In this document: piece after piece, positions 4,624-60,665 of the stretch | Layout of the letters: every line of letters begins with the position of its first letter | How positions within the stretch are numbered: the stretch's first letter is position 1 | Source: Desulfoscipio geothermicus DSM 3669 | Lineage (GTDB): Bacteria > Bacillota > Desulfotomaculia > Desulfotomaculales > Desulfallaceae | Length of the DNA stretch: 64,000 bases | NCBI RefSeq assembly: GCF_900115975.1 | Contig: NZ_FOYM01000003.1 | Span: forward strand, 1-64,000 | Direction of reading: 5' to 3' | Translations under genes and position numbers: made by a program | The notes under the pieces: model-generated | What the model was told of the DNA's origin: nothing | The model's database searches: none | Seen by the model: the letters and a program-made list of their open reading frames with translations, nothing else

Positions 4624-4676
4624 AAAAAGGGACAGGCAACTTTTTCAAAATACGAAAAAGTAGCCTGTCCCTTTTT
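4624..4676. repeat. GGGACAGGC-family palindrome between convergent genes
   Basis: The left arm AAAAAGGGACAGGCAACTTT and right arm AAAGTAGCCTGTCCCTTTTT enclose a short AAAATAC loop, with A and T runs at the two ends. It sits between the convergent anti-sigma and hicA ends, where it would serve as a two-way terminator. Confidence 0.85.
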
Positions 4677-5249: not shown

Positions 5250-5304
5250 AAAAGGGGACAGGCAACTTTTTCAAAAAGCGAAAAAGTAGCCTGTCCCCTT
5301 TTTT
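5250..5304. repeat. GGGGACAGGC palindrome at the end of the SLH protease gene
   Basis: Arms AAAAGGGGACAGGCAACTTT and AAAGTAGCCTGTCCCCTTTT enclose an AAAAAGC loop. The right end overlaps the protease stop codon (5303-5305), and the minus-strand copy ends in a T run, so it can terminate that transcript. Confidence 0.85.
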
Positions 5305-9694: not shown

Positions 9695-9803
9695 GTAAAA
9701 AGGGGGACTGGCTCCGATTGGTTTTGCGGCAAAAAAGGGGACAGGCAACTTTTTTAAAAGCCAAAAAAGTAGCCTGTCCCCTTTTTTGCCAGTCCCCTTT
9801 TAC
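9695..9803. repeat. Nested palindromes: GGGGACAGGC element inside a GGGGACTGGC element
   Basis: The outer arms are GTAAAAAGGGGGACTGGC (9695-9712) and GCCAGTCCCCTTTTAC (9788-9803). Between them lies a complete element, 9731-9787, with arms AAAAAAGGGGACAGGCAACT and AGTAGCCTGTCCCCTTTTTT. The outer right arm contains the mbl stop codon. Confidence 0.85.
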
Positions 9804-30588: not shown

Positions 30589-30651
30589 AAAAAGGGGACA
30601 GGCTACTTTTTGTGCTAATTTTTTCCACAAAAAGTAGCCTGTCCCCTTTTT
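30589..30651. repeat. GGGGACAGGC palindrome
   Basis: Perfect arms AAAAAGGGGACAGGCTACTT and AAGTAGCCTGTCCCCTTTTT have inner arms TTTGTG/CACAAA and an AT-rich loop. It lies between the sigma-54 activator gene and the small Cys protein. Confidence 0.85.
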
Positions 30652-30992: not shown

Positions 30993-32258
30993 TTAAGCCT
31001 TGTTACCCAGCCAACCCCTGATCTTCATGGCTTCGTAAATGCGCTTGATAGCCACCATGTATGCGGCGCCCCGCATATTGATATCGCCGTGCTCTTTGTA
31101 CAGCGAGTATACGCTGTCAAAGGCTTCAACCATCTTTCTTTCCAGGCGCTCATTGACTTCTTCTTCGGTCCAGTAGTAGCCGTACTGGTTCTGCACCCAC
31201 TCAAAGTAGGACACGGTCACGCCGCCGGCGTTGGCCAGCACGTCGGGCAGCACCAGGATATTTCTCTTGGCCAGAATATTGTCGGCTTCGGGAGTGGTGG
31301 GACCGTTGGCTCCTTCGGCTACGATCTTGGCATTGATCTTGTCGGCGTTTTCCCCGGTGATCTGGTTTTCCAGAGCGGCCGGCACCAGGATGTCGCATTC
31401 AAGCTGCAGCAGTTCTTCGGTGGTGATGTTCTTGCTGCCCGGGAAGCCCACTACGCTGCCGGTTTCGAGCTTGAACTTTTCCAGGGCGGCGATGTCCAGA
31501 CCGTTGGGGTCATATGCGGCACCGGTGGAGTCGCTGACCGCCAGCACTTTGCAGCCGTCCTCCCGGGACAGCAGCCTGGCCGCAATGCTGCCCACGTTGC
31601 CGAAGCCCTGTACTACAACAGTGGCGTCTTTAAGTTCCAGGCCGGTAGCTTTGGCAGCCTGGCGAATGGTAAATACGCAGCCCCGGGAGGTGGCTTCCAC
31701 ACGACCGAGGGAGCCGCCCACGATGATGGGCTTGCCGGTGATTACGCCGAATTCATTATATCCGCGGTAGCGGGCAAATTCGTCCATCATCCAGCCCATG
31801 GTCTGGCCGTTGGTTCCCACGTCGGGAGCCGGTACATCCATGTCGGCGCCCAAAACGGGAGCGATGGCGCGAATGTAGCCGCGGCAGAGCTGCTCCAGCT
31901 CATTGGGGGAAAGCTCTTTGTGGTTGACGATGACCCCGCCTTTGCCGCCGCCGTAGGGCAGGTTTACCACGGCGCACTTGAGGCTCATCCAGGTGGACAG
32001 GGCCTTCACTTCATCCATGGAAACGTCCGGGTGGAACCGGATGCCGCCCTTGCAGGGCCCGCAGGCATTGTTGTGCTGGGAGCGGAATCCCTTAAATACC
32101 TTGATGGAACCGTCGTCCATCTGCACCGGGATGGATACTGACAATACACGCTGCGGCTCACGCAATATTTCGGCAACTGTTCTATCCAAACCTAATTTTT
32201 CTACGCAATCGTCAATCAGGTTTTGTACAATTTCAAAGCAGTTAATTTCTTGACTCAT
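30993..32258 (-). CDS. gdhA: Glutamate dehydrogenase
   Basis: This 421-residue enzyme interconverts glutamate and 2-oxoglutarate plus ammonium. The catalytic Lys region is LPYGGGKGGVIVNHKELSPN, the substrate Lys region GFRSQHNNACGPCKGGIRFH, and the Rossmann motif VVQGFGNVGSIAARLL. The short hexameric clostridial/RocG-type length suggests NAD use, which I cannot prove. In this neighbourhood it would remove the amino group passed to glutamate by the two aminotransferases. AAAGGGAGTG precedes the ATG. A sigma-54 promoter lies at 32314-32329. Confidence 0.92.
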   Translation of the reverse strand: MSQEINCFEIVQNLIDDCVEKLGLDRTVAEILREPQRVLSVSIPVQMDDGSIKVFKGFRSQHNNACGPCKGGIRFHPDVSMDEVKALSTWMSLKCAVVNLPYGGGKGGVIVNHKELSPNELEQLCRGYIRAIAPVLGADMDVPAPDVGTNGQTMGWMMDEFARYRGYNEFGVITGKPIIVGGSLGRVEATSRGCVFTIRQAAKATGLELKDATVVVQGFGNVGSIAARLLSREDGCKVLAVSDSTGAAYDPNGLDIAALEKFKLETGSVVGFPGSKNITTEELLQLECDILVPAALENQITGENADKINAKIVAEGANGPTTPEADNILAKRNILVLPDVLANAGGVTVSYFEWVQNQYGYYWTEEEVNERLERKMVEAFDSVYSLYKEHGDINMRGAAYMVAIKRIYEAMKIRGWLGNKA

Positions 32259-34755: not shown

Positions 34756-34819
34756 AAAAAGGGGACAGGCTACTTTTCCTGGCAATAATTGCCAGGAAAA
34801 GTAGCCTGTCCCCTTTTTT
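34756..34819. repeat. GGGGACAGGC palindrome between convergent genes
   Basis: Perfect arms AAAAAGGGGACAGGCTACTT and AAGTAGCCTGTCCCCTTTTT, inner arms TTCCTGGCAA/TTGCCAGGAA, loop TAA. It can terminate both the activator gene and the nhaC fragment. Confidence 0.85.
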
Positions 34820-34821
34820 AT

Positions 34822-35823
34822 TTATGCAACAAACCCCGCGATCAAGAAAGCTACAGCCGCGAACCCGGCAGCCAGCAATCCATAGGGCAGCTGGGTTATG
34901 GCGTGCTGAAAGTTATCGCAGCCGGCTGCAGATGAACTGAGAATTGTAGCATCCGAGTAAAAGCAAATATGGCTTCCCCAGACACCCGCGGAAACTACGG
35001 CCCCAACCACCACAAAGGGGTTGGCGCCCACGGCCAGCGACAAAGGAATAACTATCGGCAATGCAATTACATACATCCCCCAGCTGGTTCCGCTGATAAA
35101 TTCCGTAACGCCCAGCACCAAAAAAACTACCAAAGGCAGCAGTTCCGGAGTCATCAAAGGCTTGGCGGAATTAATGACATATTCAACAAAACCTATTTGT
35201 TCGTTGGCCTCGGCGAATAAAAACGCCAGCACTACAAGCAGCAACGGGAACAGCATATTTTTTATCCCTTTAACGCTGACATCCGCAAAGTCCAACGGGC
35301 TCATCAACTTTTGCGGCACATAGAGCAGGAACATAAACGCCATTGTACTGATCACACCCATCATCATATCAATCTCAAAGTAGATGGTAGACGCAACCAA
35401 AAAGGCAATTGGCAAAAAGAAGTTCATAATTTTGGGGTTGGCGGGCACTTCAATTTGCTCGCCTGCCTTGATATCAATTTTTTCCGATCCAGGGGGCGCA
35501 AGCACCCCGGTTTCCAGTGCTCTCTGATCTGCTTTTTTCATTGGACCCAGAGCCGGTATAATGCCCAAAATAACCAGCGGCACTATGAGAGCTGCAAACC
35601 ACCCGTAAAAATTGAAGGGAATAGTTTTGATAAAGTATTGCATTCCCTGCCCGTCCGGCGCCAATCCGTTTGACTCGAGCAATGCGGCGATAAATACCGC
35701 CCAGGTGGATATGGGAATCATGACGCATACCGGAGCCGCGGTGGAGTCGACGATATAGGCCAGCTTTTCCCTGGAAATCTTATGCCGGTCCGTAACAGGA
35801 GCCATACAAGAGCCAACCGTCAA
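34822..35823 (-). pseudogene. NhaC-type Na+/H+ antiporter, N-terminal part missing
   Basis: The 333-residue open frame matches the C-terminal two thirds of NhaC/YqkI-type antiporters. It enters the family in the middle of the conserved segment APVTDRHKISREKLAYIVDS, then continues through about eight helices to a normal end. Family members are about 450-530 residues, so roughly 130-180 N-terminal residues and their helices are missing. The only possible starts are a TTG (35823) or later ATG inside the conserved segment. The 5' end is joined to a truncated AOR gene in another frame. It is almost surely not functional as an antiporter. Confidence 0.75.
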
Positions 35824-36613
35824 AGGTGCCTTGCTGAAAGTTTTTGGTGGGCAAGATACCGGTAGTATGGGAGAGTTCCACCAACATGGGTGTACCGTCG
35901 GTATAAGCCCACAGATTGGTATCCGTCAGCAGGTCGTTTTTAAAGGCATCGTGGGCAACGTCCATGAGCTTTTGCGCATCCGCAGCCCGCACTCCGCCAG
36001 TTCCCTTGACCACCAGCGCTTTAAGCATTTTGCTGCCCATTACCGACCCGACCCCGCCCCGGCCGGCCTGCCTGTAGAGATCAGACGTAATACAGGCAAA
36101 GGGCACAAGGTTCTCCCCGGCCGGTCCTATGGAAAGAACACTGAAATCATCGCCGCATTCTACCTTTAATTTATTTTCGGTTTCATGACAGCCCAATCCC
36201 CAGTAGTTTTGGGCGGACTTGATTTCCACTTTGCCGTCTTCAATCAGCAGATATACCGGCCGGCTCGCCTTGCCTTCAATAATTACGGCGTCGTAACCGG
36301 CGCGCTTAATCTCCACCGCCGCCGAGCCGCCTATGGAGCAGTCCAAAACTGTGCCTGTGGCAGGCGATTTGGTTACAATAGAGAGCTTGCCGGAACAAGG
36401 CACCACCGTTCCGGTAAACGGACCGGTCATAAAAATCAACTTGTTCTCAGCAGACAGGGCACCAACACCGGGGCCCACTTCCTCATACAAGTATTTAATA
36501 CCCAGCCCCTTGCCGCCCAGGTAATCATTCGCCCATTTTTGATTCAATTCCTCGGTGTACACCTTTTTGTATGTCAGGTCAACCCTGAGCACCAATCCCT
36601 GATAACCGGCCAT
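35780..36613 (-). pseudogene. Aldehyde ferredoxin oxidoreductase, C-terminal part missing
   Basis: The frame starts normally (ATG 36613, GGAGGAGGTG upstream) and covers domain 1 of AOR: LGGKGLGIKYLYEEVGPG, FTGTVVPCSGKLSIVTKSPA, IGPAGENLVPFACITSDLY and AGRGGVGSVMGSKMLKALVV. It breaks after ILPTKNFQQGTFDGW (about residue 268), runs 10 unrelated residues and stops; those residues are nhaC sequence read in the wrong frame. The [4Fe-4S] Cys cluster (C-x2-C-x3-C, expected about 20 residues later) and domains 2 and 3 are lost, so no activity is possible. Full-length AORs are 575-625 residues. Confidence 0.8.
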
Positions 36614-37012
36614 TTAATTCACCTCCTCCGACACCAGCGCTCCCTGCGGGCACCATTTGGCACAATACGGATCCCCCTGACAGCCGTCGCAAAGCAATGG
36701 GAAACCCTGCCCGTCCGGTCGCAATACGCCGGTTGGACATTCCTCGATACAAACATTGCAGTTTACGCAGTCATCCCGCGACAGGTCGAGCCGACCGCCG
36801 GTAAATCTTATCGCCTCCGCCGAACAGGCCTCGACACATTTAAGACACAGGTCGCAGAGTTTTGCTTCATTGATCAAATTATTAGATTTATATTTAGATG
36901 TTATTTGCAGCCGGGCCAAAGCGGGGTTAAACAAACCCTCCTTGCATCCGGAACAGGCCAACTCACAAAGGTGACAGCCAATACATTTTTCCGGCCGGTA
37001 CGTTAATTTCAC
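36614..37012 (-). CDS. Polyferredoxin-type electron carrier associated with AOR
   Basis: This 132-residue iron-sulfur protein starts at GTG 37012 (AAGGGGGTTTAAGG upstream). Clusters are formed by CIGCHLCELACSGC (near residue 10), CDLCLKCVEACSAEAIRF, CVNCNVCIEECPTG and a final CDGCQGDPYCAKWCPQGAL, up to four [4Fe-4S] sites. Such 'AOR-delta/YdhY-type' proteins pass electrons from AOR to a partner. It immediately precedes the truncated AOR gene (stop and start touch), showing that the AOR locus was once complete. It may now serve the intact AOR at 39139-40869. Confidence 0.82.
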   Translation of the reverse strand: MKLTYRPEKCIGCHLCELACSGCKEGLFNPALARLQITSKYKSNNLINEAKLCDLCLKCVEACSAEAIRFTGGRLDLSRDDCVNCNVCIEECPTGVLRPDGQGFPLLCDGCQGDPYCAKWCPQGALVSEEVN

Positions 37013-37060
37013 CCTTAAACCCCCTTTTTGACAACTTATTGTCACATCATCCCGACAGCG

Positions 37061-39138: not shown

Positions 39139-40869
39139 TTACCAGCCGCGCAGGCGGTAGTAGTCGTCCACCATTTTGTTTAGTTCCTCAGGCGTGATGC
39201 CGTCCTGGCCGTCGTTGATTTTCTCTTTGAAGAACCTTGGCGGCAGTGTGTCGTATTCCCGACCGATGCCCTGCTGCAGGTTGAATTCGCGGGTGGCGGT
39301 GATGATCCGGTTGGCTATGGCCTCCAGGTCTTGTTGTGTGTATTCAAGGCCGGTGACGGCTTTGTTCAGGTCCACCAGGGTCTCCCAGGGAATGAGGTCC
39401 CGGAAGAAGACGCAGAGTATCTGGGTGTTGAAGATGGTCAGCCGATTCTCGAAGTCGATGAATAGTTCGGCTTTGCCCTCAGTGGTAGATTTGTCTATCA
39501 TGCCGGCCAGTTCGGGCTTGTAGAAGGTGGCCCGCAGGTGGCAGGCACCCCGGGCGGAGGTGGCGTAGGCCAGGCCCATCCCTTTCAGCACGCGGGGATC
39601 ATACCCGGGGGGTTCCATACCTTTGACGTGGATGGCTATGTCTTCCAGCTTGAGCTGTTTGGCTGCTTCTTTGATGCCCAGGGACAGTGTTTCGCCCAGG
39701 CCTTTGCGCTCGGCCATTTGTTTGAGCAGTTCGGCAACGGCGGCTGCATCGCCGTATTTTACCGGCGCGTCGATGAGGCCGCGCTCTGCGCCTTCCATGA
39801 CCAGGGCTACCAGGTTGCCGGCGGTGATGGTGTCCATGCCCAGGCGGTCGCACAGGTCGTTCATGTAGGCGACCTGGTCCAGGCTGTTTAGCGAGCATAG
39901 ACCTCCAAAGGCGTAAATGGTTTCGTATTCGGGGCCTTCCACTTCCAGGCCGGCGTATTCTCCGGCGGGCACGGTAACGTGCTTGCCGCAGGCCATGAAG
40001 CAGTTGGGGCAGGCGCTGGATTTTACCTGCAATTGTTCGCGCAGGGTGTCGCCGCTGAGGTTTTCCCAGTTGGGGTCGAAGCCCCGGTTCCAGTAGCGGT
40101 TGGGGAAGGCTTTGGCGCCGTTCATGATTTTTACCATGACGGTGGTGCCGTAGGTGCGGTAGTTTTCGACTCCGGGGTTGTCTTTGCCCAGGTTGCGGAT
40201 GCGTTTGGCGACGTCTTTTAAGAGTTCGGGGTCGGCCAGCTCGGCTTTGGCGTTGCCGTGGAATACTACGGCTTTGAGTTTCTTGGCGCCCATGACGGCG
40301 CCCATGCCGGTGCGCCCGGCGGAACGCCATTTGTTGTTTTCTATGCAGGCGAACCGTACGAGGTTTTCTCCCGCCGGACCGATGACCAGGGCCTGGGAGC
40401 CGGGTTCGTTGATTTTTTCGAGAACTGCCGCTTCGGTGGCGTAGGTATCTTGGCCCCAGAGGTCGGCTGCGTCGTGGAAGGTGACGCCCCGGTCGCTGAT
40501 TTCTACAAATACGGGCCGGTCGGCGGCGCCGTCGAAGATGATGGCGTCGTAGCCGGTGCGGCGCATTACGGGCGCTACCCGGCCGCCGGAGTATGATTCG
40601 GCGTAGCCGCCGGTGAGCGGTGATTTGGCAAACACGCCGTAGCGACTGTTGCCTACCATTACGGTGTCGGTGGCGGCACCGGTGGTGAAGATGAGTTTGT
40701 TGTCCGCGGAGAGAGGGTCGGTGCCGGGCTTGACGTTTTGCAGTAAGAGGTAGGTGCCCAGTCCTTTGCCGCCCAGGTATTGTTTTAGCGTTTCTTCGGG
40801 GATGGTTTCTACAGTGTGGCTTTTGTCGGTAAGGTTTATTCTGAGCAGTTTTCCGTAAAATCCTTTCAT
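39139..40869 (-). CDS. aor: Tungsten-dependent aldehyde ferredoxin oxidoreductase
   Basis: This 576-residue enzyme oxidises aldehydes to acids and passes electrons to ferredoxin, using a bis-tungstopterin and one [4Fe-4S] cluster. Domain 1 shows YLGGKGLGTYLLLQNVKPGT and GPAGENLVRFACIENNK; the cluster ligands are C287, C290, C294 (ACPNCFMACGKH) and C486 (NTQILCVFF). A typical pterin/substrate segment is GYDPRVLKGMGLAYATSARG then ACHLRATFY. It stands alone, between the two aminotransferase genes, which both make aldehydes. Ferredoxin is a good acceptor for H2 or low-potential reactions. The true aldehyde is inferred from context. AAAGGAGGTAACAAAAAC precedes the ATG. Confidence 0.92.
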   Translation of the reverse strand: MKGFYGKLLRINLTDKSHTVETIPEETLKQYLGGKGLGTYLLLQNVKPGTDPLSADNKLIFTTGAATDTVMVGNSRYGVFAKSPLTGGYAESYSGGRVAPVMRRTGYDAIIFDGAADRPVFVEISDRGVTFHDAADLWGQDTYATEAAVLEKINEPGSQALVIGPAGENLVRFACIENNKWRSAGRTGMGAVMGAKKLKAVVFHGNAKAELADPELLKDVAKRIRNLGKDNPGVENYRTYGTTVMVKIMNGAKAFPNRYWNRGFDPNWENLSGDTLREQLQVKSSACPNCFMACGKHVTVPAGEYAGLEVEGPEYETIYAFGGLCSLNSLDQVAYMNDLCDRLGMDTITAGNLVALVMEGAERGLIDAPVKYGDAAAVAELLKQMAERKGLGETLSLGIKEAAKQLKLEDIAIHVKGMEPPGYDPRVLKGMGLAYATSARGACHLRATFYKPELAGMIDKSTTEGKAELFIDFENRLTIFNTQILCVFFRDLIPWETLVDLNKAVTGLEYTQQDLEAIANRIITATREFNLQQGIGREYDTLPPRFFKEKINDGQDGITPEELNKMVDDYYRLRGW

Positions 40870-43409: not shown

Positions 43410-44813
43410 TTGTCACAAGATTCCGGTTTTGCAAGAGTATTATCAAGACGCGACGTTCTGGCCCTGGCCTTCGGAGCCATGATCGGTTGGGGTTGGGTGG
43501 TACTGGCCGGGTCATGGATCCGTTCCGCCGGGTCGTTTGGCGCTATGCTGGCCTTTCTTATCGGCGGAATCTTGGTTGTTTTTGTAGGATTAACTTATGC
43601 CGAACTTGCCTCCGCCATGCCCAAAGCGGGGGGAGAATTGCTTTATAGTTATCGGGGTTTGGGAGTAACACCATCTTTCATTTGTGCCTGGACCATCGTT
43701 TTGGGGTATATTTCAGTGGTATCTTTTGAGGCCGTGGCGCTGCCCACGGTGGTTGAATACCTTTTCCCCAATTACAAGCAGGGTTACCTCTGGACCATTG
43801 CAGGCTGGGATGTATACGCCAGCTGGGCGTTGGTGGGAATAATCGGTTCCATCATTATCTGCATTGTCAATTATGTGGGCATTAAAATGGCGGCCTTTAT
43901 GCAGACGGTATTTACTATTATAATTGCAGCCGGCGGCATAATGCTTATCACCGGCAGTCTTTTCAACGGAAGCACGGCGGATATGGAGCCGTTGTTCACC
44001 GGCGGCATGGCCGGACTTTTCTCGGTAGTTATCATGACTCCCTTCATGTTTGTCGGATTCGACGTCATTCCGCAGGCAGCGGAAGAGATGGACATACCTT
44101 ATAAAACTATCGGGAGAATATTGATCATTTCGGTTTTAATGGCTGCGGCATGGTACATTTTAATTATCTTCGGGGTATCCCGGGCTCTCAGCCCGGCTGA
44201 ACTGGAGAATTCCGGCCTGGCCACGGCAGATGCCATGGCGGCGCTGTTTGGCGGCGCGTGGGCGGGCAAAATTTTGGTTTTGGCCGGCATTGCGGGAATC
44301 ATCACCAGTTGGAACGGTTTTTATATCGGGGCCAGCCGCTTGATCTACGCCATGGCCCAGGCCAAAATGCTGCCCGACTTTTTGGGTAAGCTGCACCCCA
44401 AGTATAAAACTCCCCATAATGCCGTTATCCTGGTAGGGATTTTATCCACGCTGGCACCCCTTTTCGGCAGAAAGATGCTGGTCTGGCTGGTGGACGCCGG
44501 CGGCATGGGCGTTGTAGTAGCTTACATGGCAGTGGCATTGTCCTTTCTGGTACTCAGGTACAAAGAACCCGATATGCCCAGGCCTTTCACGGTTTCCAAC
44601 GGCAAGCTGGTAGGTTTTATAGCTGTTCTGCTCAGCCTGGGGATGGCCATAATGTATCTGCCCGGAAGCCCTTCGGCGCTGGTATGGCCGTACGAGTGGG
44701 CCATAATCCTTGGCTGGCTCGCGTTGGGCGTGGTATTTTATATTGTGGCCAGGTCGCGACATGGCAACGCGGCAGATGTATTGCTGAACGAGAAAGTTCG
44801 GGAAAATATGTAG
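43410..44813 (+). CDS. APC-family amino acid/amine permease
   Basis: This is a 467-residue integral membrane protein with about 12 helices. The APC substrate segment GAMIGWGWVVLAGSWIRSAG (helix 1) and TYAELASAMPKAGGELLYSY (helix 2-3) are clear, as is FMFVGFDVIPQAAEEMDIPY. I place the start at TTG 43410 (MSQDSGF), seven bases after AAGGGGTG, rather than at GTG 43401, which overlaps that site. It probably brings in an amine or amino acid (cadaverine, putrescine, 5-aminovalerate or GABA are guesses from the neighbours). It diverges from the gabT-type gene. Confidence 0.85.
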   Translation: MSQDSGFARVLSRRDVLALAFGAMIGWGWVVLAGSWIRSAGSFGAMLAFLIGGILVVFVGLTYAELASAMPKAGGELLYSYRGLGVTPSFICAWTIVLGYISVVSFEAVALPTVVEYLFPNYKQGYLWTIAGWDVYASWALVGIIGSIIICIVNYVGIKMAAFMQTVFTIIIAAGGIMLITGSLFNGSTADMEPLFTGGMAGLFSVVIMTPFMFVGFDVIPQAAEEMDIPYKTIGRILIISVLMAAAWYILIIFGVSRALSPAELENSGLATADAMAALFGGAWAGKILVLAGIAGIITSWNGFYIGASRLIYAMAQAKMLPDFLGKLHPKYKTPHNAVILVGILSTLAPLFGRKMLVWLVDAGGMGVVVAYMAVALSFLVLRYKEPDMPRPFTVSNGKLVGFIAVLLSLGMAIMYLPGSPSALVWPYEWAIILGWLALGVVFYIVARSRHGNAADVLLNEKVRENM

Positions 44814-44828
44814 TTTTAGTAGTAATGC

Positions 44829-44892
44829 AAAAAGGGGACAGGCTACTTTTCATGGTAATTATTGCCAGGTAAAGTAGCCTGTCCCTTTTTTA
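44829..44892. repeat. GGGGACAGGC palindrome between convergent genes
   Basis: Left AAAAAGGGGACAGGCTACTT, right TAAAGTAGCCTGTCCCTTTT, inner arms with CATGG...CCAGG. It separates the permease from the ubiquitin-like gene and reaches the latter's stop. Confidence 0.85.
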
Positions 44893-60567: not shown

Positions 60568-60665
60568 GAAAAAGGGGACAGGCTACTTTTTCGCTTTTTG
60601 AAAAAGTTGCCTGTCCCCTTTTTCACCTGTAAATTATTAACATGAAAAGTAGCCTGTCCCCTTTT
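60568..60665. repeat. GGGGACAGGC palindrome plus a stranded half
   Basis: The full palindrome 60568-60624 has arms GAAAAAGGGGACAGGC and GCCTGTCCCCTTTTTC, inner arms CTTTTTC/GAAAAAG. A right half, CATGAAAAGTAGCCTGTCCC, follows at 60641-60665, as at 39110. Confidence 0.85.

Follow-up and report, generated by a model that had tools for sequence, protein, structure and literature searches.

In the window, the whole stretch of 64,000 nucleotides that was analysed, the 5' part of an AOR gene (AOR2) is joined out of frame to the 3' part of a gene of the PF03553 antiporter family, and a deletion at short shared bases, real in the chromosome, probably broke both genes (estimated probability of about 0.7). 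The junction as assembled, the synteny with relatives, the absence of the rest of AOR2 from the assembly and the lack of decay are direct observations; from sequence comparison we infer the presence of the junction in the chromosome, the deletion mechanism and the loss of function. An annotation of this locus might credit it with a functional AOR and a functional antiporter, neither of which is likely. The junction and its surroundings comprise the following features.

30993 to 32258, minus strand: glutamate dehydrogenase gene (gdh); NF040817 583.5 bits, below its cut-off of 750; syntenic in L072 and L074
32816 to 34600, plus strand: PrdR-like sigma-54 activator gene, convergent with the cluster; NF041552 457.7 bits, below its cut-off of 795
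34822 to 35823, minus strand: 3' fragment of the PF03553 antiporter-family gene, 333 codons, identified by Pfam; about 164 N-terminal codons missing
35817 to 35823, minus strand: breakpoint with the shared sequence TTGACGG, of which the TGAC part is supported in both parents
35813 to 36613, minus strand: 5' fragment of AOR2, 265-267 of about 587 codons, from Pfam and tblastn homology
36614 to 37045 (start maybe 37024), minus strand: gene for a ferredoxin-like 4Fe-4S protein adjoining AOR2; Pfam Fer4 and synteny with L072, L073 and L074
37061 to 38422, minus strand: putrescine aminotransferase-like gene (patA); NCBIfam NF008570 745.4 bits, cut-off 612
39139 to 40869, minus strand: full-length AOR gene (AOR1), 576 amino acids, with PF02730 and PF01314
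41407 to 42717, minus strand: 4-aminobutyrate aminotransferase-like gene (gabT); TIGR00700 581 bits, cut-off 506.65

The two open reading frames that meet at the junction (36613-35780, 277 amino acids, and 35823-34822, 333 amino acids, both on the minus strand) have 44 bp in common, read in different frames, and the AOR2 frame continues for 10 out-of-family codons past the end of homology before the stop at 35780. This overlap and the limits of homology confirmed what the first-pass annotation had proposed, an AOR frame that is normal and then runs out of frame into the antiporter gene. The interval that it gave, 35780-35823, is the right locus, but its span is that of the ORF overlap, and the join proper lies at 35817-35823. 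At the DNA level, AOR homology ended at query positions 795-797 (35819-35817) in the comparisons with G008, G006, G001, G005 and the paralogue located on contig C29 of the same genome. When tblastn was used, the end was found at 35819 (residue 265 of 587) for G008 and G006, with 83.0% and 81.9% amino acid identity, and at 35813 as aligned (residue 267) for G001, with 76.8%. Antiporter homology starts at 35823 and was matched from residue 1 onward in 32 of 32 antiporter loci from elsewhere, so that both homologies overlap in TTGACGG.

The sequence TTTGAC is present at the join position in AOR2 of G008, G006 and G001 (3/3), and the C29 paralogue has TTTGATGG there. On the antiporter side, TGAC occurs at the corresponding codons in 29 of the 32 relatives, the exceptions being L041, which is the second nearest one, L043 and L044. 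Judged from these relatives, as the true parents are lost, TGAC was probably common to both parents at the join. The shared sequence possibly extended up to 7 bp (TTGACGG), with the bases beyond TGAC derived from either parent, and it may also have been shorter than 4 bp, given the three relatives without TGAC. In a simulation of 200,000 random joins between AOR2 of G008 and the L040 antiporter gene, at least 4 bp were shared in 1.6% and at least 7 bp in 0.04%.

The AOR2 fragment contains the whole AFOR_N domain (PF02730, 270.3 bits versus a cut-off of 29.8, 1.3e-80), and AFOR_C (PF01314) remains below its cut-off (19.9 bits versus 27), with a match limited to positions 19-50 of 385. The motif CxxCxxxC, which we take to be an iron-sulphur ligand of AOR2, is located at residue 285 in the G008 protein and is absent from the fragment. 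Intact AOR2 has 587 amino acids in G008, G006 and G001, and about 320 of these 587 codons (55%) are gone here, less than the two thirds initially annotated.

The antiporter fragment was recognized by PF03553 with 118.3 bits (cut-off 23, 5.1e-34). In all 32 antiporter loci, which contain ORFs of 479-535 amino acids, 146-197 residues precede the point at which the fragment in the window starts; the nearest relative, L040 (73.6% identity over the aligned part), has 164 upstream residues and 497 in total. The proposed absence of the 5' third of this gene was thus borne out: judged by its relatives, the gene would have had about 497 codons, and about 164 are gone from the N-terminal side. The start of the fragment, LTVGSCMAPVTDRHK, precedes the APVTDRHK block and is not within it as had been noted. 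The name NhaC given at first pass is too narrow, since three full-length relatives are below the cut-off of the NhaC equivalog TIGR00931 (370 bits): L040 reached 32.4 bits and L045 41.7 bits, and no match was listed for L042, another full-length relative; the fragment itself scored 40.5 bits.

At E<=1e-60 this antiporter type was found in only 1 of the 113 genomes of the class, the one under study, and for this reason it was probably imported. The nearest relatives found (70-74%) come from MAGs that carry the labels Alkaliphilus, Acidobacteria and Bacillota. A recent foreign composition of the fragment was not supported by GC3 (0.57) or by codon usage (distance 0.20, versus 0.08-0.29 for other genes), both unremarkable for the window. 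In the DNA fetched for the 32 loci, genes detected with at least 44% identity included PatA-like genes in 13 loci, PrdR-like genes in 4 and a GabT-like gene in 1, counts that are lower bounds, several loci being short contigs. The antiporter subfamily with a nearby PatA-like gene comprises L040, in which this gene lies directly upstream of the antiporter gene on the same strand, and 12 loci among L056-L071. Because of the PatA-like gene near 13 of the 32 loci, the substrate is perhaps an amine or an amino acid and not Na+/H+, and the subfamily could possibly be considered an amine or amino-acid transporter rather than a Na+/H+ antiporter.

The gene order in the relatives G008 (L072) and G001 (L074) is gabT, AOR1, patA, ferredoxin, AOR2, transporter, agmatinase, a convergent PrdR-like gene and gdh. 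The order from gabT to agmatinase is the same in G006 (L073), with no PrdR-like regulator or gdh in the stretch read. AOR2 is whole at this position in these three relatives of the same family. The transporter slot is occupied by an amino-acid permease in G008 and G006 (87% identity), by a sodium:solute symporter in G001 and by the antiporter fragment in the window. The PatA-like protein of the window scored 647.6 bits with TIGR03372, just under the cut-off of 658.65, and the ferredoxin gene is intact, as expected from the earlier description of it as the remaining partner of AOR2.

No agmatinase gene was found in the window's slot, and the best matches to the G008 agmatinase in this genome showed 40% (C40) and 33% (C29) identity. 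A search for remnants of agmatinase, APC permease and SSS transporter genes between 30000 and 45000 gave chance-level matches only, with the exception of a distant permease at 43416-44432. It is plausible that the deleted middle held further pathway genes, the agmatinase gene for example, which may instead have been lost separately: agmatinase lies beyond the transporter in the relatives, so that its loss would be a separate one if the order in the window was the same. A relative with AOR2 and this antiporter both intact and adjacent was not found among the 113 genomes of the class, and for this reason we infer the ancestral order and the length of the deletion.

REP-like palindromes are present in the window at 34757-34817, 30590-30650, 44830-44890, 4624-4676, 5250-5302, 9733-9785 and 60570-60665. 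In the genome, 142 REP-like half-sites were counted with up to 3 mismatches, versus 0 for the reversed control, and 19 among the 100 matches listed are inside the window. Genes for Y1-type transposases, with open frames of 298-304 amino acids, are found at C34:86489 and, in two copies, on C63. The palindrome at 34757-34817 may be connected with the loss of agmatinase; it was rejected as the cause of the join because it is about 1 kb away from the breakpoint.

The missing gene parts were searched for in the whole assembly (3,652,244 bases in 83 contigs, 99.99% complete). AFOR_C gave 12 matches in the genome, namely 10 open frames of 582-671 amino acids, the AOR2 stub and one weak match of 29 residues. 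The weak match, located on C40, was rejected as a moved AOR2 remnant since no significant hit was obtained there when AOR proteins were used in tblastn. The C-terminal half of G008 AOR2 had 13 matches in the genome, all inside full-length AOR genes. As the AFOR_C matches are accounted for by full-frame genes, the stub and this unsupported weak match, the assembly has no orphan 3' half of AOR2. The 3.65 Mb genome carries ten full-frame AOR-family genes. The antiporter fragment is its only PF03553 match, and the 164 N-terminal amino acids of L040 produced no match in the genome, in a search run without a positive control.

The age of the break was approached by comparing the fragments with their counterparts. 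The AOR2 fragment has 83.0% amino acid identity to G008 with a dN of 0.109, and the identities of the other genes to G008 are 81.1% for AOR1, 83.9% for gabT, 89.4% for patA, 80.3% for gdh, 70.4% for the ferredoxin gene and 81.8% for the PrdR-like gene. With G001 as outgroup, changes unique to the window versus those unique to G008 were 9 versus 15 in the AOR2 fragment, 50 versus 30 in AOR1, 41 versus 23 in gabT and 40 versus 17 in gdh. Unique changes in the antiporter fragment and in L040 were 32 versus 30 with L042 as outgroup, and 24 versus 29 with L045. As synonymous sites were saturated in many pairs, dN/dS was set aside. Identity, dN and relative-rate counts revealed no decay in either fragment, and a very young break and an artefact therefore fit equally well.

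According to the preferred reading, a recent recombination event between a few bases that both genes had in common (TGAC, perhaps TTGACGG) would have deleted the intervening DNA, leaving 45% of AOR2, its 5' part, attached to two thirds of the antiporter gene, its 3' part. AOR2 would have lost about 0.97 kb and the antiporter gene about 0.49 kb, together with a middle part that may have contained the agmatinase gene. Owing to the out-of-frame join, the AOR2 product would stop after 277 residues and the antiporter would be without its first third, so that both fragments would be pseudogenes. The single deletion put forward at first pass remains the best fit because both genes are on the same strand, short bases are shared, AOR2 is intact and syntenic in three relatives and its lost part is absent from the assembly, with misassembly as a less probable alternative.

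An artefact of the assembly or of the library (a chimeric read, an amplification chimera or a strain mixture), with both genes whole in the chromosome and the middle skipped, is considered unlikely. The absence of decay is compatible with it, and similar-looking breaks are found at the same locus on contig C80 of G005 (L075 1-2600), in which AOR2 is joined to a symporter gene, the ferredoxin gene is joined to AOR2 and a piece of patA is present. One end of the G005 contig has a translation that we take to be that of a common sequencing adapter, and artefacts at this locus are therefore possible in draft assemblies. Against this, the shared bases (7 at most) are far below an assembler overlap, and the join contains no repeat, the longest exact match of the surrounding 100 bp in 241,771 other bases of the genome being 11 bp; a DNA search of the whole genome retrieved only paralogues with 65% identity. 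In addition, the missing half of AOR2 is nowhere in an assembly rated as 99.99% complete, and the window has no run of N. When 210 ORFs of relatives were compared with about 240 kb of this genome, made up of C34 from its start to 164 kb and of four further stretches, 137 of 142 pairs with at least 60% identity were covered at 80% or more in one piece. Three of the five partial pairs correspond to AOR2 itself, and the others are L074 985-2094, an ORF overlapping its neighbour that probably has an over-long start, and L093 19363-19776, a short ORF with a partial match (residues 22-121 of 137). No other clearly cut gene was found in these 240 kb.

The losses could also be explained by one event, in which incoming foreign DNA bearing an antiporter gene reduced to its 3' part would have recombined at a few bases within AOR2, with simultaneous replacement of the 3' end of AOR2, of the previous transporter and of the agmatinase gene. 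Such a one-step replacement agrees with an antiporter type that is foreign to the class and with the disappearance of both the old transporter and agmatinase from the slot. However, the unremarkable composition of the fragment indicates that the import is not obviously recent, yet both broken ends look recent, and the import of a whole gene that was cut later is equally simple, so this replacement is regarded as quite improbable. A real expressed product, with truncated proteins that work or that are joined by frameshifting, would take advantage of two open frames overlapping by 44 bp and of the TTG and ATG of the antiporter frame right at the join, but the stub is without CxxCxxxC and no comparably short antiporter is found in the 32 loci; this explanation has very little likelihood.

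A second cluster is located on contig C29 of the same genome (L076 7953-14865) and includes genes for an AOR2-like AOR, a ferredoxin, an arylformamidase-like protein, an NCS1 transporter, an agmatinase and a PrdR-like regulator. The AOR2-like gene has 65% identity over its length to AOR2 of G008, the agmatinase reached 230.8 bits versus 174.3 with TIGR01230, and the sigma-54 activator is 40% identical to the PrdR-like protein of the window. A survey of 16 genomes of the family at E<=1e-150 showed full-length AOR2-type genes in four of them: G008, G006 and G001 have one each, all in the cluster, and this genome has only the C29 copy. According to this survey, the one of the four genomes with a broken AOR2 is also the one with a second AOR2-like gene. 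The C29 AOR2-like gene and agmatinase may make the loss of AOR2 tolerable, and the AOR2-like gene may take over its function.

From gene names and order, the cluster could encode the conversion of agmatine to putrescine (agmatinase), 4-aminobutanal (PatA) and GABA (AOR2 and ferredoxin), followed by succinate semialdehyde (GabT) and succinate (AOR1), with glutamate dehydrogenase recycling 2-oxoglutarate. It is tentatively suggested, as a rather doubtful possibility, that the cluster of the relatives represents an undescribed AOR-based, presumably tungsten-dependent, agmatine/putrescine route in which the transporter can be exchanged (APC, SSS or PF03553), and that this species is in the course of switching the AOR2 and agmatinase steps to the AOR2-like locus on C29. 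The portions of the literature consulted contained nothing on AOR together with agmatinase and, for AOR together with putrescine, single mentions of putrescine, which hints at most that an AOR-based putrescine route is unreported. Two AORs are located where aldehyde dehydrogenases are expected in putrescine breakdown; if the route is true, polyamine oxidation would be linked directly to ferredoxin reduction in anaerobes. The scar itself is an ordinary gene-breaking event, and the intact cluster of the relatives is more interesting.

Within the AOR family, defined by PF02730 and PF01314, the fragment keeps the N-terminal domain whole, and domains 2 and 3 are almost entirely missing. The fragment of the second gene and the two full-length relatives tested score in the PF03553 family of Na+/H+ antiporters (NhaC, Tet(35) and ArcD-like proteins), and the full-length relatives are below the cut-offs of NhaC (TIGR00931) and of Tet(35). 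Deletions between short direct repeats (microhomology) occur in bacteria, and the junction resembles them in that two genes on the same strand are fused at a few probably shared bases with the intervening DNA apparently gone; no difference from such deletions was seen, the parental sequence being lost here.
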